The notes below the pieces were generated by a model that saw nothing but the letters and a program-made list of their open reading frames with translations, was not told where the DNA came from and ran no database searches. Below are positions 37,625 to 47,337 of a stretch of DNA of 64,000 nucleotides, in pieces (position 1 is the first letter of the stretch; each line of letters begins with the position of its first letter). A program made the position numbers and the translations under genes. Origin of the DNA: Calditrichota bacterium (lineage in GTDB: Bacteria; Calditrichota; Calditrichia; Calditrichales; Calditrichaceae); contig RQOG01000061.1 of the NCBI GenBank assembly GCA_003854985.1, positions 1-64,000 on the forward strand. Direction: 5' to 3'.

Positions 37625-38059
37625 ATGATTGTCACAGTTGATACCAACGTTATTTTTTCAGCGCTTTATAGTAATAAAGGCGCTTCTCATTGTATTTTAA
37701 GATTAATCCTTGATGAAAAAATAAATTTAGCGATCTCAACGCAGATTTATTTCGAATATTACGATGTTTTAATCCGTAAAAGCAGTTTAAAGCAGTTAAA
37801 TTTATCGGTTTCTGAAATAGAAGACATTCTGGATTTACTGGCTTTGCTTTCTCAGAAATATCATATCTATTATTTATTAAGGCCCAATCTTCCTGATGAA
37901 AGCGATAATATATTTGTGGAATGTGCATTTGCCAGTGATAGTAAATATTTAATTACCGGTAATATAAAAGATTTCAAAAAAAGTGAATTAAAGGGCTTTA
38001 ACTTTAAATTAGTAATGCCTGGCGAGTTTTATAAACTATGGAGTATAAAAAATGAGTAA
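37625..38059 (+). CDS. PIN-domain toxin of a toxin-antitoxin pair
   Basis: 144 residues with PIN motifs V-T-V-D6-T-N-V-I-F-S-A near the start, a middle acidic residue in the Y-D-V-L segment, and D-E-S-D-N-I-F-V-E-C-A-F-A-S-D-S-K-Y-L-I-T-G-N-I-K-D-F near the end. It fits the PIN_3 group of putative RNases (VapC-like). The next gene encodes a ribbon-helix-helix-type protein and overlaps by 8 bases. The order (toxin first) is the reverse of most vapBC pairs. Base composition is AT-rich, like the accessory genes downstream. Confidence 0.85.
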   Translation: MIVTVDTNVIFSALYSNKGASHCILRLILDEKINLAISTQIYFEYYDVLIRKSSLKQLNLSVSEIEDILDLLALLSQKYHIYYLLRPNLPDESDNIFVECAFASDSKYLITGNIKDFKKSELKGFNFKLVMPGEFYKLWSIKNE

Positions 38060-38315
38060 TACTCAGGTAGTAACCTTGAGAATGCCTAAAGAGCTAAAAC
38101 GTCGTCTTGACAGAGAAGCAAAATATCAGGGTGTATCGATAAATCAACTTGCTAATTATTTGGTAAATATTCAATTAACACATTTGGAATCTGTTTCCCT
38201 GTTAGAGTCAAGGCTGGAGAAGAAATCTATCCGTTCTTTAAAAAGGAAGGTAAAAAGAACGATTGATAATGTACCCGAAAGAAATGTGCCATCCTGGGAT
38301 TCGGTCAATGAATGA
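38052..38315 (+). CDS. Ribbon-helix-helix-like antitoxin
   Basis: 87 residues. V-V-T-L-R-M-P-K-E-L-K-R-R-L-D-R-E-A-K-Y-Q-G-V-S-I-N-Q-L-A is a typical strand-helix-helix DNA-binding start of the HicB/CopG type; the rest is a charged tail that could cover the toxin. It overlaps the PIN gene and should repress the promoter at 37590 as a dimer. The pairing is inferred from order and overlap. Confidence 0.82.
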   Translation: MSNTQVVTLRMPKELKRRLDREAKYQGVSINQLANYLVNIQLTHLESVSLLESRLEKKSIRSLKRKVKRTIDNVPERNVPSWDSVNE

Positions 38316-38379: not shown

Positions 38380-38680
38380 AAATGAATGTCGACTATCGAT
38401 TAGCGAATAATAAATCATGAGGGAATGGAAAGCTTGCAAACTTCGGCATTCAGCGTTAGGCATTTGATATTTGAAATTAAAAGATGAATGTCCAATAGCG
38501 AATATCCAATGACGAATAATGAAGGCGGATGACCTCATAAAGCTGGTCCAGATGTTTTTTACTGAAAATTTGATTTTATTATGAAAACCTTACAGGTTAT
38601 TTATTTGTTTATATAAGGATTGATAATACAAAGGTGTTTTGATATATTAAGAAAAAATTCTTACTAATATAAGTTATGTG
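38380..38680 (+). repeat. Giant attC-like module A (dispersed repeat plus right-hand site)
   Basis: It contains TTTGATATTTGAAATTAAAA, GAATGTCCAATAGCGAATAT and CGAATAATGAAGGCGGATGA, shared with modules at 39990-40377 and 45410-45857. It ends with the common tail TTCTTACTAATATA-A-GTTATGTG (38660-38680). The last 110 bp match module B at 40268-40377 closely. By analogy with modules B and C, GTTATGTG (38673-38680) would be the right recombination end of a preceding cassette. No matching left arm is found behind the antitoxin gene, so the preceding unit seems decayed. Confidence 0.55.
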
Positions 38681-38756
38681 TTTATTTTCAAATAAATATT
38701 TACTATTACATTTCTTAAATATGAAAATCATATTCACATACTTAATGAGGTATAAA

Positions 38757-39254
38757 ATGCAATATTTTAAATTCTTTTTTATTGTTTTGGTAGTATTTAT
38801 AGGCTGCCAGCCAAATACCAAGACTGAGCCTTTTGATTTAGAGGCTGCAAAAAAGGTTGTCAACACTCAATTAGACAATCTTCACCAATCTTCGAAAGCC
38901 AAGGATATTAGTTTCTTAAGAAACATGTTCACTGATGACGGCCTTTGTTTAGGAACCGATCCTGGAGAATTTTGGGACAAAGAACAAGTTATAAATGTAA
39001 ACTTGCATATGTTTGAGGATGAATCTATGGTATTCGATTACTCAATTGATAAACGTGAAATACGATTTAATCCGGATGGGAACTCAGCAATTTGTGTGGA
39101 ACAATTTACTTGGAATTCGTTTAGTCAGAAGATTCCCCTTCGTTTAGTAACTCATTTCATAAATATTAACAATGATTGGAAGTTGGATTTTGTCAGTTGG
39201 AGTTTGATACCTCTAAATGCTGATTTAGTCAAATTAAACAAGGCACTGGAGTAA
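38757..39254 (+). CDS. Lipoprotein with NTF2/SnoaL-like fold (first cassette)
   Basis: Start ATG 38757 has TGAGG upstream and yields a lipoprotein signal ending F-I-G-C. Residues 27-150 have the layout of an NTF2/SnoaL-like domain: a long first helix (A-A-K-K-V-V-N-T-Q-L-D-N-L-H), F-T-D-D-G-L-C-L-G, a central strand set with I-C-V-E-Q-F-T-W, and a closing W-K-L-D-F-V-S-W-S. Such domains bind small ligands or have varied enzymatic roles. It follows module A and is followed by an attC-like site. AT-rich composition suggests transfer. Confidence 0.7.
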   Translation: MQYFKFFFIVLVVFIGCQPNTKTEPFDLEAAKKVVNTQLDNLHQSSKAKDISFLRNMFTDDGLCLGTDPGEFWDKEQVINVNLHMFEDESMVFDYSIDKREIRFNPDGNSAICVEQFTWNSFSQKIPLRLVTHFININNDWKLDFVSWSLIPLNADLVKLNKALE

Positions 39255-39383
39255 TAGTTACATTAAATACTTTTATATCGTGTAAAAACCTACGCATCAT
39301 TTAATTCAACCTTGAATTAAATGAATGTGTTGGATTTTGTTTTTACGATCATTAACATCAATTAAAATTTTTAAGCATTTAAT

Positions 39384-39515
39384 GCACACTAAAACCTTGT
39401 TTACAGCGGATCGCTAAAGCGCTCCGCGAATTCCGCGTGGACGCGGAATTCAAAAACACAACATTCGGGACAGTCGTTCTTGTCCCGTGGCCGCTGAAAC
39501 AGACGTTAGCAGTTT
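39384..39515 (+). other. attC-like site 1
   Basis: The inner arms TGTTT(A)CAGCGG (39398-39409) and CCGCTGAAACA (39491-39501) pair perfectly apart from one extra A in the left arm. The right end is GTTAGC (39505-39510). The left end CACACTAAAAC (39385-39395) only partly matches the start of its cassette (GTTATGTG). The space between the arms holds three further hairpins: CGCTAAAGCG, GAATTCCGCG/CGCGGAATTC (10 bp) and CGGGACA/TGTCCCG. A site of about 125 bp with single extra bases fits attC. Confidence 0.6.
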
Positions 39516-39528
39516 AAAGAGGGCGGAA

Positions 39529-39885
39529 ATGCAAAATTATAATTCAAACATTGTAAAAGGAAATCATGCTGAAGAAAATGATCTCAGAACATTTTTAGAT
39601 GGCAGTGTACGTTCTACCGTTTTACTGCGGTCCTGTGCTGTTGGCTTAGGGACTTACAACCCGGGGTGGAAATGGAGTGCTCATGCCGGAGCACAAACAG
39701 GAAAATCTTCAGAGAACCACATCGGGTATATTTTATCCGGAAACATGATAGTAAAAGATTCAAATGGAATTGAAATAGAAGTCGGTTCTGGTGAAGCTTT
39801 TGAGGTTGGCCCCGGGCATGATGCATGGGTCATCGGTAATGAGCCTTGTATCGCACTTGATTTTATTCCAATAAAAAACTGCTAA
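39529..39885 (+). CDS. Small cupin-domain protein (second cassette)
   Basis: 118 residues from ATG 39529, preceded by GAGGGCGG. The cupin fold shows in the H-A-G-A-Q-T-G segment, G-Y-I-L-S-G-N-M-I-V, and the second motif G-E-A-F-E-V-G-P-G-H-D-A-W-V. Metal-binding histidines are partly kept (H in W-S-A-H-A-G, H in P-G-H-D). Single-domain cupins bind or convert small molecules. The stop TAA lies inside AAACTGCTAAC, the reverse complement of the unit start 39505-39515, so the gene fills its cassette. Confidence 0.85.
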   Translation: MQNYNSNIVKGNHAEENDLRTFLDGSVRSTVLLRSCAVGLGTYNPGWKWSAHAGAQTGKSSENHIGYILSGNMIVKDSNGIEIEVGSGEAFEVGPGHDAWVIGNEPCIALDFIPIKNC

Positions 39886-40377
39886 CAATGCAGTCAAGAA
39901 GATTTGCTGTTTTTCTTGCCGATTGAAAGTCTATAGTTTTAATAGTCTTCACACCCTATTGTCTATAGGCACCATTAACCCGCCAACCCTTTATCGTCAT
40001 CGTTGTCGTGACCGGCTGCACTTATCCATAAAAAAGCTTTCACCAATCGGCGTTCGACATTTGATATTGGAAATTAAAAGATGAATGTCCAATAGCGAAT
40101 ATCCAATGACGAATAATGAAGGCGGATGATCTGACGAAGCTGGTAAAATAATTTTTTTCTTCATATTATTCAAAGTAGTTATTCCTGATATGATTTAAAT
40201 GGTTGAACGACATAAAGATAAACAACTATGATTACAGGATATATTAATAATATTTTCCTGAAAAAGTGATTTTATTATGAAAACCATACGGGTTAAGTAC
40301 CTATTTATTTTAAGATTGATAATAAAAATAGATTTTGATATATTGAGAGCAAATTCTTACTAATATAGGTTATGCAC
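39876..40377 (+). other. Giant attC-like site 2 (module B, about 500 bp)
   Basis: R'' AAACTGCTAAC (39876-39886) matches the cupin unit start. L'' AAGAA(GA)TTTGCT (39896-39908) and L' AGCAAATTCTT (40348-40357) pair perfectly with two extra bases on the left. R' is GTTATGCAC (40369-40377). The 440 bases between the arms contain the dispersed repeat (39990-40145) found elsewhere in the window, so the variable loop of the site has grown by repeat insertion or is a conserved family feature. Confidence 0.65.
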
Positions 40378-40494
40378 TTTAAGATTATAATTTTCAATTA
40401 ATAAGAACATTAAAAGTATAAGTTTCATTCTTTTCTAAAAGTTACATAATTCTTAAAACAAAGGAGAAGACATGAATATATCGTCGGTTGACAA

Positions 40495-40655
40495 GCCCCG
40501 TTTAGAACCGTAATTCTAAGCGGAGCGGAAAAAGGCTTAAGGCTGTATCATTATCGTGGGACACGGATCCCGTAAAGGAGACTGGTCAGGCCTTGAGCGT
40601 CTGTCGCCATAGGGCATGTTAGACCCTGAATAGGAGTGTGGCACAACCGACAAGA
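40495..40655 (+). ncRNA. Predicted IS110 bridge RNA
   Basis: Three helices are read by eye. A 5' stem-loop: CCGTTTAGAA (40498-40507) with TTCTAAGCGG (40514-40523), 10 bp. A second helix, GCTTAAGGC (40535-40543) with GCCTTGAGC (40590-40598), closes a 46-nt loop that itself holds GGGA/TCCC. A third, TGTCGCCA (40602-40609) with TGG (40639-40641) and CGACA (40648-40652), has a bulge and an inner AGGG/CCCT. One 5' stem-loop followed by two large internal loops in the upstream end of the element is the layout of IS110 bridge RNAs (target-binding then donor-binding loop). Confidence 0.7.
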
Positions 40656-40703
40656 ATTCTGCTCTAATATGATAAAACCAAAACAATAGGAGGAGCAGAG
40701 ACC

Positions 40704-41714
40704 ATGAGTTATATAGGAGTTGATTTACACAAGAATAATTTTCAGGTATGCTATATTAATGGTCAACAGAAAAAGTTTTCTCATTATAGTATTCATGACC
40801 TGGAAAAGTTTAAAGAGACGTTAAATAAGGAAGATCACCTGGCGGTAGAATCGACGGGTAACACGCGTTACTTCATGAATCAGGTAAAAGAGGCTGTAGG
40901 GCGTGTTGTAGTGGTAAATCCCCGCCAGTTTAAAGTAATTAGTAATTCGGTAAAGAAAACAGATAAACAGGACGCGGAGCAGCTTGCACTATTTCTGAGC
41001 AAAGATATGCTTCCGGAAGTACGCATGAAAGATGAAAAACGCAGTCAGTTAAAAAGCCTGGCCAACACACGTGATAAGTTGGTAAAATTACGCACGGCGT
41101 TAAAAAATAAAGTGCACAATATTTTGAACGCCCATGGCATTGTTACCCCGCGCGAAGCGTTTAGCAGCAATAAAAGTCTGGATGGTTTAAAAGATTATGC
41201 GGTAAATGAACTGGCCCATCTTGAGATAGAAGTGATAGTCAGCCAGATTCGTTCTTTAAATGAAGGTATAAAAAGACTGGATAAGCAGATTGAAGACGCT
41301 GGTAAAGACTTAGACGGTTTTGAAAACATCACCAGCATAAAGGGTATCGGTAAAAAAAGTGGAACGATTCTATTGAGTATCATAGGCGACATAAATGATT
41401 TTGCCGATCCGGGTAAACTGGCCTCCTTCTTCGGTGTTGTTCCGCGTATAAGCAATTCCAATGAGAACATTCATCAGGGACGCATAACCAAACAAGGCAG
41501 CAAGCTGGGTAGAACAACTCTTGTCCAGTGTACGTTAATCGCCATAAGATATTCGGATTATCTGAGAAGTTTCTATGAACGGCTAAAGCTAAAAAAAGGA
41601 AGCGGCAAGGCCATAATAGCCACAGCCCGCAAGTTTTTAGATATTATTTATATGACCTTAAAAAATAAATTAATCTTTGAAGATTTCCCTAATTTCGTGT
41701 TGAAATCTTCATAA
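40704..41714 (+). CDS. IS110-family transposase (DEDD recombinase)
   Basis: 336 residues, intact. The N-terminal RuvC-like domain has D7 (Y-I-G-V-D-L-H-K), E49 (A-V-E-S-T-G), and D87/D90 (K-K-T-D-K-Q-D-A). A coiled-coil-like middle leads to the C-terminal Tnp domain with I-K-G-I-G-K-K-S-G-T and R-I-T-K-Q-G-S266-K-L-G-R, whose serine is the expected nucleophile. The start follows AGGAGGAG. It should work with the RNA encoded just upstream. Full length suggests recent activity. Confidence 0.95.
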   Translation: MSYIGVDLHKNNFQVCYINGQQKKFSHYSIHDLEKFKETLNKEDHLAVESTGNTRYFMNQVKEAVGRVVVVNPRQFKVISNSVKKTDKQDAEQLALFLSKDMLPEVRMKDEKRSQLKSLANTRDKLVKLRTALKNKVHNILNAHGIVTPREAFSSNKSLDGLKDYAVNELAHLEIEVIVSQIRSLNEGIKRLDKQIEDAGKDLDGFENITSIKGIGKKSGTILLSIIGDINDFADPGKLASFFGVVPRISNSNENIHQGRITKQGSKLGRTTLVQCTLIAIRYSDYLRSFYERLKLKKGSGKAIIATARKFLDIIYMTLKNKLIFEDFPNFVLKSS

Positions 41715-41743
41715 TACTAAAGATTTTATCATAGGAGAATATT

Positions 41744-44668
41744 ATGGGTAAGCATTTTAGGTATTTTACTATTTTCATTATTTTAATAATTGTGGAATCC
41801 CATGCTACTGATTATTTGACCAATGCCATTTCATGGAAGAACTGTTGCCAAGCATATAATCAGGGTTATCCAGCTGAAGATTTTCAGACAAATTTTGTTG
41901 GTGACTTTAATGGTGATGGGCTTGAGGATAAACTTTATATGTGCAGTGGAAAATATTGGGTAGCCTACACTGAGAATAAATCAACCTATGGAGTTCAAGG
42001 TTTTTCCGGCGAAAGTTGGACAAAGGAAATAGTATTTGATAGTAATTCTGAATTTGAAAGACGTGCAATAGGTGATTTTAATGGAGATGGCGCAGATGAT
42101 ATTCTGATTATTAGGGCATATTCAAACAACATTAAATTGGAAGTTGCTCTTTCAGTACAAAAAAGATTAGCTAACTCAGCTGGACCATATGGCCAATATA
42201 TAGATGTATCTGATGGTAGTTATTTTTTTAAACCTAATGAAGTATGGGGAACGACAATAACCGCATTTAAGAGTGCATTTGAAAACTCATTTGTTAAAGA
42301 CGCAAAATTAAATAAAGTATATATTGGTGATGTAACTGGAGATGGTTTGGATGATATTGTAATTCTATATTATAATAAATATATCTATGTAATAAAATCT
42401 GTATATACACCAAATTTTTCTACTTCTGGTGCAGATTTTGCAAATTATTCTTTCTCAAGCCATCAATACAAATTAAATCTTGGGAGTTATGTAGATGAAT
42501 TTTTTCTTGGTGATTTTAACGGTGATGGTTACGATGATATTACGTATACAAAAATATCACCATATAATAACAATTTCTATATAGCCTTAAATAAGGGTAA
42601 AGATTCAGATACTAGTCCCGGTTATTTTTCAACAAATGAATTTACAGGAGCATTCTATTCACCATATGATGCAAGTGGTAACCACGGTTCATTGTCCATT
42701 TCAAATTTTCCATTGCACTTTATTTCAGATTTTAATGGTGATGGATTAGATGATAAACTTTATCTATGTTCAAGTAAATACTATATCTCACTTTCGAAGA
42801 TTAGTCCGGATGGAAAGCCTTATTTTCAAAGTGAGATAATTTGGGGTGCTATTGATTGGTCTAACTATGGCAGAAGTTATATTGGCGATTTTAATGGAGA
42901 TGGATTTAATGATATTCTAAATGCAAGGACAAACTCTACATGGGATGTTCGACTTGCAGATAAAGAAGCTATTTTTGATAATGCTACATTTGCACAAGAT
43001 GGACATAACGGTGAAGCCAGAATGGAGAAAATAGTAGCCTGTTGGATGTTTCCTTTTACTTACCTTTGGCCAGAAAGAGGATGGAGTGCATTTGGTTACC
43101 ATCCAAATGAGAGATATATGTCAGGATTCCCATATATCACTCCCATAATAAATTGGGGTTCAACTGATTTTCCCTTAATTGAAACAAATTCAGCAACTTG
43201 GATTGAAGGACCTTATTCTTATTTGGATTTCACTAATAATCCCCTATCATATTCAACGGAAGATGTTTTAAAAATGCAAATTGAGTCTATTATTAAATCC
43301 GGTATTAAAGTAATCGTCGTAGATGTAACTAATGGTTTTATCGATGTGGATGAATTTAATCATCAAGCATATGATAGTAGTGGAGATAGTACTAATTATA
43401 GTAATGTAAGAGAAGCATTGACAAATATATTCGAAATTGTAAAAAATAATAATTTAGATATAAAAATTGCAGTAGGACTTGGCAAGGAATTTTGGGGAAG
43501 ATTCGAATTGAAACCACATAGCTATGATCCGTTTATACCTTGTTATGGAAATGCAAATTTAGTAATAGGTTGGGAAGCTCAAAGAAGTAGACAGAGAATT
43601 GCTTTGGATAAAATTGAGTTAGATTATATTACTCCTTATAATGACAAATACTTTTACTATCAAGGTAAACCACTCGTAGTCACCTATGTTATACCATCTC
43701 GTGATTTTCCAATGACAGCTGATGGCTATCTTCAAGAGACAATCCCAAGAACATTTTTTCCTGATTTTAATGTTAAAATTGCTCTGAGTGCAAATAGTAC
43801 ATATGCATGGTTTAGAGGGAACAATGCTATATTCCAAAACGGCTTGGATAATACAAATTATTGGAGTTGGGGCTCTGAATTACTTAATAATAATATTTAT
43901 GGGGCTGATTCTAAAACTGCAAATTTTCCAAGTTATTCCAATGAAAAGTTACCCTATAATGCAGAATGCATGTCTGTAATGCCGGGTAGAACCATGGTTT
44001 GGCACAATCTAACAGACAGGGATGGTAATGGTGTGCCTCGATGGGCAGATAATAATAGCAATCATTACTTTGAATCCTGGAAATCTGTAATAAATGCCGA
44101 TCCGCGTATTGTCTTAATATGTGACTGGAATACATGGGGTGAAGCGACTTCTATTGAAGCATGTACAACAGGACCCGGTAAAACCTGGTATGAAAGTGAT
44201 GGCTGTACACCAGATCCCGGGTATGATGATGCACAAGACATACAACTGTTTAGGAGCCCTTGGCACAATAGTAGCGGTACTAATGATCCATTCTTTTATC
44301 AAAATTTAACTAAAGATTTTTCAGATTATTTTGTTGGTAATACTTATACTCCACCAGTATTAAGTAAAGCAAATTTTAACGAAAACTTAATAATTGAGAA
44401 TCCAATATCTTTTGAGCTAAAACAAAATTATCCGAATCCATTTAATCCAATCACAAAAATAGAATTTTCAATTCCCGAAGATTCAGATATTTATTTAAAA
44501 ATTTATAATGTTTTGGGTCAGGAAGTTTATTTTTATCATAAAGACAATTTACTAAAAGGATATCATACAATTAATTTTGATGGATCGAATTTATCAAGTG
44601 GTCTTTATATTTATACATTTAAGGCAGGCAAATTCGAAAAGAAGATGAAAATGTTATTGGTTAAATAA
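41744..44668 (+). CDS. Large secreted FG-GAP protein with GH99-like domain and T9SS sorting domain (third cassette)
   Basis: 974 residues. A signal peptide (to about 21) is followed by at least five FG-GAP/VCBS-type repeats with the calcium-binding core G-D-F-N-G-D-G-x-x-D-D (about residues 50-410). Residues about 425-865 look like the TIM barrel of GH99/GH71-like enzymes, with L-I-C-D-W-N-T-W-G-E-A-T-S-I-E near the end as in their W-N-E-W-G-E-x-x-x-I-E motif. The last 80 residues are a T9SS sorting domain (N-Y-P-N-P-F-N-P to G-L-Y-I-Y). It may cleave alpha-mannan-type glycans at the surface. Carriage on an integron-like cassette is unusual for a gene this large. Confidence 0.82.
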   Translation: MGKHFRYFTIFIILIIVESHATDYLTNAISWKNCCQAYNQGYPAEDFQTNFVGDFNGDGLEDKLYMCSGKYWVAYTENKSTYGVQGFSGESWTKEIVFDSNSEFERRAIGDFNGDGADDILIIRAYSNNIKLEVALSVQKRLANSAGPYGQYIDVSDGSYFFKPNEVWGTTITAFKSAFENSFVKDAKLNKVYIGDVTGDGLDDIVILYYNKYIYVIKSVYTPNFSTSGADFANYSFSSHQYKLNLGSYVDEFFLGDFNGDGYDDITYTKISPYNNNFYIALNKGKDSDTSPGYFSTNEFTGAFYSPYDASGNHGSLSISNFPLHFISDFNGDGLDDKLYLCSSKYYISLSKISPDGKPYFQSEIIWGAIDWSNYGRSYIGDFNGDGFNDILNARTNSTWDVRLADKEAIFDNATFAQDGHNGEARMEKIVACWMFPFTYLWPERGWSAFGYHPNERYMSGFPYITPIINWGSTDFPLIETNSATWIEGPYSYLDFTNNPLSYSTEDVLKMQIESIIKSGIKVIVVDVTNGFIDVDEFNHQAYDSSGDSTNYSNVREALTNIFEIVKNNNLDIKIAVGLGKEFWGRFELKPHSYDPFIPCYGNANLVIGWEAQRSRQRIALDKIELDYITPYNDKYFYYQGKPLVVTYVIPSRDFPMTADGYLQETIPRTFFPDFNVKIALSANSTYAWFRGNNAIFQNGLDNTNYWSWGSELLNNNIYGADSKTANFPSYSNEKLPYNAECMSVMPGRTMVWHNLTDRDGNGVPRWADNNSNHYFESWKSVINADPRIVLICDWNTWGEATSIEACTTGPGKTWYESDGCTPDPGYDDAQDIQLFRSPWHNSSGTNDPFFYQNLTKDFSDYFVGNTYTPPVLSKANFNENLIIENPISFELKQNYPNPFNPITKIEFSIPEDSDIYLKIYNVLGQEVYFYHKDNLLKGYHTINFDGSNLSSGLYIYTFKAGKFEKKMKMLLVK

Positions 44669-44727
44669 ATTATAATTCTAAAGTAATAAAAATTTATAGT
44701 ACTCTAAGTTATTAATAATAGCGCATT

Positions 44728-44839
44728 GTGCATAACAAGGGCATTAACGGCGACTGGATCAGCCGCCATTCTATTACGAAAAGTTCATGGGCTTGGAAAG
44801 GTCATCGGCCAGCGCGTTATGCCCCAGCCGTTAGCTTTT
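44728..44839 (+). other. attC-like site 3 (best preserved)
   Basis: R'' GTGCATAAC (44728-44736) is the exact reverse complement of the unit start GTTATGCAC at 40369. L'' GGGCAT(T)AACG(G)CG(A)CTGG (44739-44757) pairs over 16 bp with L' CCAGCGCGTTATGCCC (44809-44824), leaving exactly three unpaired bases, all on the left arm. R' is GTTAGC (44830-44835). Total length of about 107 bp and the extrahelical bases are classical attC features. A diverged copy of its central part occurs at 46958-47015. Confidence 0.75.
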
Positions 44840-44846
44840 TAGGAAT

Positions 44847-45233
44847 ATGAAGATATATTCTATATTATTAACAATTATTTTTGTCTTGCTATTTTTTTGT
44901 GAACAGGATAAAAAGTCTGTGCATTTTCGTCCACCTCATCCCGATAGTATAGGTGTTGGAACAGCAGAATATTTGCAAGGCGAAAAACAAGCAAATTTAG
45001 ATTTTAAAAATGATAATTCTAAATTCTATCTCGTTGGATTAATAAACTTAAATTCTCTGAGTGCTGAAAATATGAGGAAAGAATTTAAAAGTAAATATAA
45101 TATTGAACTAAGCTTTGAAGTCTGTACGGGGGGAAGTGCATATAAAAACGGGTATAATAACACAATTAAAAAATTAGTTGAAAAGAAGCATGAAATTAGT
45201 CTCAAAAAAGAAGTTCATGAATGGATAAATTAA
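44847..45233 (+). CDS. Small lipoprotein (fourth cassette), unknown function
   Basis: 128 residues with a lipoprotein-like signal (hydrophobic core then L-L-F-F-C-E near residue 18). The mature part is charged and contains N-S-L-S-A-E-N-M-R-K-E-F-K-S-K-Y-N-I-E-L-S and C-T-G-G-S-A-Y-K-N-G-Y-N. No family recognised. The ATG lies only 11 bases after the attC-like right end and the cassette closes 5 bases after the stop, the tight fit expected of a gene cassette. Confidence 0.65.
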   Translation: MKIYSILLTIIFVLLFFCEQDKKSVHFRPPHPDSIGVGTAEYLQGEKQANLDFKNDNSKFYLVGLINLNSLSAENMRKEFKSKYNIELSFEVCTGGSAYKNGYNNTIKKLVEKKHEISLKKEVHEWIN

Positions 45234-45238
45234 ATATT

Positions 45239-45857
45239 AAAAGCTAACACCTTTTAAAAGGACTTTGTCATTAGGAAAACAGTACTCCCGTAAAAAATCT
45301 CTATATTTTTTAAATATATACCATCAATTTTTTCCTTGAACCATAATTGACAAATAGCATTTGCCTTTCGAATAGCCATTGCGGCTGACCAGACTGGCCT
45401 TTAGAAATAATATCGAATATCGATTAGCGAATGATGATTTCAGATTTAAATAGATCCCATTGTGCCCGTTGATCGTCATCGATATCGTTATCGATATCGT
45501 AATCGGCTATTCTTCTTCAGTAAAAAGGCTTCCGCCAATCGGCGTTCGGCATTTGATATTGGAAATTAAAAGATGAATGACCAATAGCGAATATCCAATA
45601 ACGAATAATGAAGGCGGATGACCTGATAAAGCCAGTTAAGCAATTTTTTCTGTATGTTATTCAATAACAGCATGATTGATATAGTTTAATGGCCTGATAA
45701 ATATTTGCTGCCATAAACAATATAAAAAATTTATTCTGAATAAAGTGATATAAAATAGTAATCCGGGTATTCTAAGTATAATTTACACAGGTAATTGTTA
45801 GCGGTAATATCTTTTATTATATTGAGACTAAATTCTTACTAATATATGTTAGTTTGC
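45239..45857 (+). other. Giant attC-like site 4 (module C, about 620 bp)
   Basis: R'' AAAAGCTAAC (45239-45248) matches the unit start GTTAGCTTTT (44830-44839). L'' AAGGACTTTGTC (45258-45269) and L' GACTAAATTCTT (45826-45837) are complementary at 9 of 12 positions. R' is GTTAGTTTGC (45848-45857). The loop holds the dispersed repeat including CGATATCGTTATCGATATCG, GGCGTTCGGCATTTGATATT and AATAGCGAATATCCAATAAC. No gene lies between 45234 and 45873. Confidence 0.55.
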
Positions 45858-45873
45858 TTTAGGAGTAAATGAT

Positions 45874-46797
45874 ATGTCTTCATTGGTTCTTGAATTACAG
45901 AATGAAGCAATAGATTCACAAAAATCTGTTGTGAGTTTGTTACGTAAAGCCCTTGTTATTTCAAGAAAATTAAATTTAGTAGATTTTGATAACTGGATAA
46001 ATAATGAACTAAATGGTTATTCAAAAGGTGATGAAATTCCTGAATATCGTAGGGTTCAAGGAGATGTAAAAGCATTCAATCCATACAATGGAATGTGGAT
46101 GCCTATAGTATGTGAGGATTCAAAAAAAGCGGAATTTATGTCAACCAGAATGATTGGTCAGAAAATTACTGAATTAGAAAAAATTGATTTAAAAGGTGAT
46201 TCTGGAGTATTACATGTTCCATTTGCTAAAAATATAGAAACTAAACTAATGAATAGCATGGATCTACATTCTAAACCAGTGCTCATCGTTCCATCAACTT
46301 CAGTGCATGGAATTATTGAATCAGTTAGAAATATTTTACTAAACTGGGCATTAAAATTAGAGCAACAAGGTGTTTTAGGTGAAAATCTAATTTTCAATGA
46401 AATTGAAAAGACGACAGCATTATCGAATCAACAAATTAATATAACTAATTTTCAGGGTATTTTAGGAGATGTGACAAACAGTTATGTTGAACAATCAAAT
46501 TTACAAAGAATCACAAAAAATGATTTTGAATCACTTAAAAAATATTTGATTGATCAATTGAAACTTAATGCTGAAGATGTTTCAGAGCTTGAAAAAGCAA
46601 TTAAGAATGATCCAAAACCAAAAACAAAAGAAAAATTCGGTTCGTATGTATCGAAGTGGCTAGGTAAAATTATATCGAAATCTGCTGAAGGTCTGTATAA
46701 ACTATCGTTAAACTCAGCCGCAAGTGTTCTTGGACAAGCAATCTGGACATATTATGGTTTTTTGCAAACTAACCAATCGCTTAAGACATTATGTTAA
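45874..46797 (+). CDS. AbiTii-domain protein, probable abortive-infection defence gene (fifth cassette)
   Basis: 307 residues. The N-terminal 150 match the AbiTii pattern: L-V-L-E-L-Q-N-E-A-I-D, S-L-L-R-K-A-L-V-I-S-R-K-L, F-D-N-W-I-N-N-E-L-N-G-Y, E-I-P-E-Y-R-R-V-Q-G-D-V-K-A and S-T-R-M-I-G-Q-K-I-T-E-L-E. The C-terminal half is different, with a helical lysine-rich stretch and a hydrophobic end (about 275-295). AbiTii proteins are linked to phage defence by abortive infection. The cassette end GCAAACTAAC (46764-46773) lies inside the frame, so the last 8-11 residues may be encoded by foreign attC sequence. Confidence 0.75.
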   Translation: MSSLVLELQNEAIDSQKSVVSLLRKALVISRKLNLVDFDNWINNELNGYSKGDEIPEYRRVQGDVKAFNPYNGMWMPIVCEDSKKAEFMSTRMIGQKITELEKIDLKGDSGVLHVPFAKNIETKLMNSMDLHSKPVLIVPSTSVHGIIESVRNILLNWALKLEQQGVLGENLIFNEIEKTTALSNQQINITNFQGILGDVTNSYVEQSNLQRITKNDFESLKKYLIDQLKLNAEDVSELEKAIKNDPKPKTKEKFGSYVSKWLGKIISKSAEGLYKLSLNSAASVLGQAIWTYYGFLQTNQSLKTLC

Positions 46798-47030
46798 AAA
46801 GTAATTGATGATGCGCGCACTCCTTTCATACTTTAGAGACAAAAAAGTGTTTAAGAAAGGAGTTATCATGCAAACGCAAAATCGTTCTTTGAATTTTAGC
46901 GGTCAGACTTTTTATATCGGCCTGGTGCTTGTTTTTAGCCCGTCAGTAGCCGGGTAGGCCGGATCAGCCGTTGATTCAATTCCGAAAAAAGTGCATCGGC
47001 ACAGCGCAGTCATGTGCCGCGCCATTGGGC
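46764..47030 (+). other. Decayed attC-like site 5
   Basis: R'' GCAAACTAAC (46764-46773) is the exact reverse complement of the unit start at 45848. Bases 46958-47015 (GGATCAGCCG...ATTC.ATT.CGAAAA...CATCGG.CAGCGC) repeat the central part of site 3 at 44757-44815. A possible right end (A)TTGGGC lies at 47024-47030. An IS110 gene start is inserted in between, and inner arms no longer pair clearly. Confidence 0.45.
46868..46957 (+). pseudogene. N-terminal stub of an IS110-family transposase
   Basis: After AAAGGAG a frame of 29 codons begins M-Q-T-Q-N-R-S-L-N-F-S-G-Q-T-F-Y-I-G-L, resembling starts of IS110/IS1111 transposases (x-N-F-x-x-Q-x-x-x-V-G-I-D-V-H-K). The expected D-L/V-H-K is absent: the frame switches to unrelated sequence after Y-I-G-L and stops at 46957. 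It is a fragment left by deletion, unrelated to the intact copy at 40704. Confidence 0.5.
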
Positions 47031-47039
47031 TGAATGCGG

Positions 47040-47337
47040 GGGCTGCCGGGGAAGAAACGCCACAGCGGATATTAAGGGCAGCCTGAGATAGAGATTTATC
47101 TTTAGGATAAAATTATACTTTCTGCAAACCAAAGAAATTTCCCATATAGCTGAAAAAAATATTTAAAATTAATTTCTTTCTTTTATGAAATTGAATTATT
47201 ATATTAAAAATGTAAACCGGAATGAATTACAATTAACTTATCGCAATGGCCATTAACAATTCAAAAATATAATTAACATAAAGTCACAAAGACATTTTTT
47301 AAGATATAAAAAATAACTTCCTTTTTTTGGAGGTAAA
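47040..47337. other. AT-rich spacer before the secreted-protein pair
   Basis: No gene is supported. The stretch presumably carries the promoter of the following two genes; I see no unambiguous -35/-10 pair. A good ribosome binding site (TTGGAGG) lies directly before 47338. Confidence 0.5.

Follow-up and report, generated by a model that had tools for sequence, protein, structure and literature searches.

Multiple attI copies, a promoter-like element and one integron-integrase gene in the genome of a Calditrichota bacterium

The window analysed here, a 64,000-nucleotide stretch at the start of one contig of a draft Calditrichota genome, very probably holds three short cassette arrays with their own attI and promoter-like element Pc, belonging to a set of about 23 copies on 17 contigs that accompany one integrase on contig C93 and that would have arisen by platform duplication, intI loss and separate capture of cassettes. 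The anatomy of many attI-Pc docks together with one integrase gene is well supported. In the course of events that we propose, the three arrays would stand in series, each starting with its own attI copy and most likely also with Pc; the copies would be duplicates of the intI-attI platform, from which intI was lost while promoter and attI were retained, and each copy would have taken up its cassettes independently, IntI most likely acting in trans. The features of the window are as follows.

38620-38676, plus strand: Pc-attI copy 1 (TTGATA 38620-38625, TATATT 38643-38648, attI box 38655-38676, crossover G 38673)
38674-39504, plus strand: cassette A, with a SnoaL-like ORF (Pfam) and an attC at its right end in which a clean complementary R'' was not found
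39505-39886, plus strand: cassette B (GTTAGCAGTT...AACTGCTAAC), with a weak cupin match (Pfam)
40029-40125, plus strand: dispersed repeat joined to the intI relic, copy 2 (also 38447-38523 at copy 1 and 45521-45612 at copy 3)
40120-40165, minus strand: intI relic of copy 2, the first ~15 codons, from tblastn and blastn against C93 (similar relics at ~38523-38556, shortened, for copy 1 and 45610-45655 for copy 3)
40316-40372, plus strand: Pc-attI copy 2, the right end of site 2 (TTGATA 40316, TATATT 40339-40344, attI box 40351-40372, crossover G 40369)
40369-44736, plus strand: body of cassette C (GTTATGCAC...GTGCATAAC)
44728-44835, plus strand: ordinary attC of cassette C (arm duplex z -2.5, reached by 9 of 500 shuffles)
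44830-45248, plus strand: cassette D (GTTAGCTTTT...AAAAGCTAAC), with a 128-aa ORF that has no Pfam match
45249-45385, plus strand: array-end segment after cassette D, found also behind the terminal cassettes of two arrays on contig C2
45795-45851, plus strand: Pc-attI copy 3, the right end of site 4 (TTGTTA 45795, TATATT 45818-45823, attI box 45830-45851, crossover G 45848)
45848-46773, plus strand: cassette E (GTTAGTTTGC...GCAAACTAAC), with an AbiTii gene
46774-47051, plus strand: left half of the attC of cassette E, continued by an IS110-like remnant, a junction also seen at C3, C72 and C12

In cassettes B, C, D and E the start is the reverse complement of the cassette's own end over 9-10 nt, and attC arms accompany these ends; complementary starts and ends of this kind identify an integron array in the window. 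An earlier note on this DNA had also recognised a cassette array with the tail as one repeated end, which the cassette boundaries and the tail copies bear out. Cassette C contains an IS110-family transposase (40704-41714) and encodes an FG-GAP protein of 974 aa that has a type IX secretion tail (41744-44668). Two further genes were observed in passing: the AbiTii abortive-infection gene (45874-46797) is a phage-defence cassette immediately behind an attI copy, and a PIN-domain toxin-like gene with a small ORF that by eye resembles an antitoxin lies at 37625-38315, among the repeats to the left of copy 1.

The identity of the tail was settled outside the window. Its exact copies, TTCTTACTAATATA, were found at 38658, 40354 and 45833, three copies as in the earlier note, and allowing at most two mismatches there were 8 matches against about 1 expected. 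Genome-wide there are 8 exact copies, one of them on C93, the contig of intI. The tail, with the consensus TTCTTACTAATATAxGTTA, stands there immediately upstream of the sole intI of the genome above the cut-off (TIGR02249, 463.6 bits against a cut-off of 265), the two being divergent; the tail is at C93:10692, some 205 nt separate the crossover from the intI start, and a cassette, GTTATACAG...CTGTATAAC, follows. When IntI was searched by tblastn, no match was obtained in the 64-kb window or in 13 further stretches, and the C93 locus alone of this genome matched. A tail that is divergent from intI and is followed by a cassette has the anatomy of attI; the tail is therefore attI, the primary docking site beside intI, copied round the genome, and its description as the right arm of an attC was wrong. 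The C93 cassette beside intI, like cassette C, encodes an FG-GAP repeat protein with a type IX secretion tail (L027:10732-12138).

Similarity to a 253-nt piece of DNA surrounding copy 2, combined with a pattern search, gave 18 places in the genome, and a sequence model of attI (R1) was built from 15 of them. The model matched the genome 23 times at E 5.4e-8 or better, the next match standing at E 0.02; 15 of the 23 had served to build the model and 8 had not. These copies are spread over 17 contigs, with three apiece on C16, C2 and C87, numbers and placements that could change, since the genome is a draft of 4.06 Mb in 180 contigs (94.9% complete). The assembly, at that completeness, could also miss a second intI. 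The three copies of the window matched R1 at 38588-38678 (E 1.8e-18), 40284-40374 (E 1.2e-20) and 45763-45853 (E 1.2e-19), and copy 2 was 85% identical to the C93 intI-attI region across 257 columns. The collection of tail copies that the earlier note had proposed yielded 8 exact and 23 model matches, and at C93 intI and not a cassette end precedes the tail. Among 39 relatives the same model at E 0.001 gave zero matches.

An attI is expected to end in GTTRRRY, the point from which cassettes start; GTTA stands at the crossover in 15 of the 23 copies and is absent in 8, and immediately past GTTA the sequences of the copies part company. Comparison of the first 800 nt after all 23 copies (547 for C58) revealed no common cassette; the matches were limited to one of 31 nt and one of 48 nt. 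Complementarity of at least 9 nt between start and end of the first cassette was found in 8 of the 15 GTTA copies, compared to 4 of 210 mismatched pairings; only runs of at least 9 were counted, as 3 of the 11 runs of at least 8 were exactly 8 without a convincing attC (C150, C21 and C15). The summed match of starts and ends, taken over the 15 copies and their downstream AAC ends, was reached by none of 5,000 permutations. The remaining 7 of the 15 tested copies, i.e., copy 1, C58 (at a contig end), C87, C72, C150, C21 and C15, lack a convincing first-cassette end, and together with the 8 of 23 lacking GTTA they constitute evidence against the reading as docks. Recombination of attI with attC by IntI is predicted here.

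In front of the attI box stands TTGATA-N17-TATATT. Across 15 aligned copies, TTGATA is 97%, TATATT 100% and the spacer between them 65% identical, at a spacing of exactly 17 nt, while the attI box has 92% identity; the spacers split into two unlike lineages. Hexamers and spacer differ in entropy with a Mann-Whitney p of 3.5e-5, a statistic that ignores the relatedness of the copies. Judged by this conservation, the element is promoter-like and most likely Pc, and transcription would start from it at the attI copies. A promoter scan gave 36 sites against 38.8 expected and is no evidence on its own. The suggestion of the earlier note that the repeat may supply promoters was right as a possibility, the promoter-like element being among the best-conserved parts of the copies.

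Several copies carry remains of intI itself. The relic at copy 2 was recovered by tblastn as RKKLFYQLRQIIRL-HYS against IntI residues 2-19, a match that is weak taken alone, and blastn against C93 showed that the first ~15 intI codons are kept upstream in the C16 copies and on C64, C3 and C72. On C64, C72, C3 and C17 the intI start is fused to what appear to be the last ~15 codons of the gene (H-LNP-RL-V); for C17, C64 and C72 this 3' end is represented by short matches only (23-30 nt, E 0.005 to 3e-4), with an additional weak tblastn match for C72, and for C3 its basis is similarity to the other copies. The relics of the C16 copies border on the dispersed repeat, not on the intI 3' end. The deletion junction occurs in both attI lineages, an indication that the copies multiplied after intI had been lost; this is the mode of spread that we infer for them.

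These relics, the frayed left edges of the copies and the 8 of 23 without GTTA are also what would be seen if the attI copies were dead remains, decayed leftovers of duplicated platforms that IntI does not use. We regard this as possible but doubtful, since the hexamers and the attI box are conserved though the spacer has diverged, the first cassette is different at every copy, and the junction shared by both lineages suggests multiplication after the loss of intI. The preferred reading, in which the copies are docks, would have the one integrase serve these scattered attI sites in trans.

The intervals between the end of cassette B and the start of cassette C (site 2) and between the end of cassette D and the start of cassette E (site 4) had been taken for giant attC sites whose loop of 440-560 nt contains the repeat. 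Each is instead the end of one short array followed by the dispersed repeat, the intI 5' relic, the promoter-like element and the attI of the next array. The cassette right ends (R'') lie at 39877-39886 and 45239-45248, and the next cassettes start at 40369 and 45848. As in any cassette, R'' is the reverse complement of its own cassette's start: AACTGCTAAC at site 2 complements GTTAGCAGTT (39505), and AAAAGCTAAC at site 4 complements GTTAGCTTTT (44830). R'' thus belongs to cassettes B and D, and R' belongs to attI. Of the attC arms claimed for both sites, R'' is present at each, and pairing between inner arm and tail is seen at site 2 and not at site 4. In a duplex test of inner arm against tail, site 2 gave z -3.8, reached by 3 of 500 shuffles, and site 4 gave z -0.24, reached by 167 of 500; ordinary attC controls gave z -2.5 to -3.3 for five sites in this genome and -5.3 to -10.3 for four in relatives. 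The arm slice for site 2 begins one base late, the others being exact or one off. This test replaced an earlier ungapped arm test, which was uninformative because ordinary attC failed it too. When 12 left arms were combined with 15 tails, cassette B with attI copy 2 was the best of the 180 pairings. The bottom strands of both sites (502 and 619 nt), folded whole as the earlier note had suggested, formed no attC-like hairpin linking the two ends.

A true giant attC, in which the R''-L'' half would pair over 440-560 nt with an attI-like tail so that IntI could cut out the final cassette along with repeat and attI, is in our view very unlikely. The site 2 duplex, the strongest of 180, speaks for it; it is unexplained under the attI reading and counts against that reading. 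The predicted excision also has a parallel, since attI-flanked units such as attI1-aadB-attI1 are described as very efficiently excised by IntI1 (PMC12901181), a result from which it follows that excision between attI copies needs no arm. On the other side, site 4 is unpaired, neither whole fold has an attC-like shape, lengths of ~500 and ~620 nt lie far beyond the 57-141 nt that PMC12901181 gives for known attC, and the C93 tail adjoins intI with no cassette before it. The giant attC is accordingly rejected for site 4, and a residue remains for site 2. The segment 39887-39925, after the R'' of cassette B, is complementary to the attI tail beyond shuffle level and may represent an inverted sequence resembling attI at the end of the array.

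The dispersed repeat occurs in the window near 37.1, 38.4, 40.0, 45.5 and 62.26 kb, so that the scatter reported earlier at 37.1, 38.4 and 62.2 kb was confirmed and extended. It has 18 matches in the genome, mostly without attI alongside (repeat families D1, D3 and D5). Insertion of the repeat into attC loops, put forward in the earlier note, is rejected, as the C93 tail stands beside intI and most attI copies lack the repeat. Among the attI copies the left edge of homology varies from copy to copy and the right end is fixed at the crossover; because of these variable left edges we do not claim an element with fixed ends, and a fixed-end transposon is unsupported. That a transposon-like dispersed repeat entered attC loops, or gained attI by chance, and carries attI around is likewise very unlikely, for although the three window copies have this repeat in common, placed left of their intI relics, and it also stands alone elsewhere, most attI copies have no neighbouring repeat, those on C64, C17, C3 and C72 have intI DNA on their left instead, and the left edges are unlike between copies. 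At the array ends, the segment after cassette D (45249-45385, ACACCTTTTAAAAGG...) follows directly after R'' in three arrays, occurs also on C12 and weakly on C156, and is not an ordinary attC.

We also looked for attI copies elsewhere. Of 60 genomes, 18 gave an IntI, the source genome among them. The queries were the stretches upstream of intI from the genomes themselves, seven in all, and nine genomes were covered (G006, G013, G015, G017, G019, G028, G029, G030 and G034 were outside this search); further copies were found in G010 (3), G008 (4) and also G016, and none in G001 and G003; the attI region of G025, searched via the identical record L109 (G060), had no extra copy. Two groups of matches were left out of these counts: those in G016 (31-40 nt, query 2059-2098) fall in a shared first cassette, and those in G010 (query 1401-1444) in another repeat; G005 and G007, with 33 matches listed each, of which one is the own-place match and almost all the rest another repeat, were likewise left out. 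That high-copy repeat, of the CCACGAATTTCACGAAT type (query ~1000-1130), is present within the intI-attI region of G005 and again at no fewer than 30 other places in that genome and in G007. The intI-less copies in G008, G010 and G016 are fewer than here, and each genome has its own attI sequence. Models built for G016 (7 matches, six of them used in building) and G008 (5 matches, four used in building) matched their own genomes at E 1e-12 or better throughout; in the other genomes covered, no match went below E 6.6e-5. G016 carries two intI. In G010 a second intI, matching across three frames, lies beside a 94% attI copy, and this broken gene with its attI copy is likely an intermediate. The cassette-end test was weaker in these relatives (12 sites, reached by 12 of 5,000 permutations; 0 of 4 in G008). 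Among 12 integron genomes taken from named records, attI copies without an IntI match nearby (tblastn, 6.5-12 kb) were found in three, two in Pseudomonas mangrovi, one in Pseudoduganella ginsengisoli and one, weaker at 69% over 244 nt, in Sulfuricella denitrificans (L203-L206); since these are Proteobacteria, the phenomenon is not confined to this class, Calditrichia. In the search of these 12 genomes, many matches in G068, one in G065 and one in G064 were not counted as attI. Low copy numbers thus occur elsewhere, and the source genome is the extreme among those examined.

Descriptions of integrons usually give a single attI, next to intI, an arrangement in which the strongly expressed cassettes are those nearest the one promoter. 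Like the sedentary chromosomal integrons described in PMC8618304, the present one has a TIGR02249 IntI, an attI by a divergent intI, a promoter before the first cassette and ordinary attC; unlike them, it has about 23 attI and not one, and most of its arrays lack intI yet have attI and a promoter. The arrays without intI nearby also correspond to a CALIN (cluster of attC lacking integron-integrase) as defined there, the attI being an addition to that definition: unlike CALIN, they open with a copy of attI and Pc, several with intI relics, which points to an origin by platform duplication and intI loss. PMC8618304 proposes off-target insertion, loss of intI and rearrangement as origins of CALIN; of these, it is loss of intI, following duplication of the platform and with attI and Pc kept, that fits the present case. 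Fragments of attI act as cassette sites in mobile integrons (PMC12901181), and the attI downstream of the genes of cassettes B and D resembles such Delta-attI-type cassettes and the attI1-ORF-attI1 units of that source. The fragments it describes come from class 1 and 2 integrons and usually measure 14-18 nt, one of 244 nt and one complete attI1 being the exceptions, unlike the complete Pc-attI modules with intI relics found here across a chromosome. The IS110/IS1111-family elements at one attC end are like the IS1111-attC insertion sequences of PMC11187229, and that type accounts for some array ends here (E, C3, C72 and C12), not for the tail.

In the open-licence papers searched we found no report of a chromosome with many attI, and many attI-Pc docks with one integrase gene are more unusual than the giant attC first proposed. 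Whether the whole amounts to a multi-port integron, in which non-autonomous attI-Pc modules, some with a deleted intI relic, multiplied and one integrase docks cassettes in trans at about 20 places and has them expressed there, an arrangement that would have arisen separately in relatives of the class and at low copy in some Proteobacteria, is a matter on which we find belief and doubt evenly balanced. Direct tests of the docks are feasible: the sites are short and of known sequence, and attI recombination can be assayed with IntI1 (PMC12901181). If true, the multi-port reading would give one integrase many first positions, each with its own promoter, would account for cassette arrays arising far from intI, and would supply a direct origin for some integrase-less cassette clusters.
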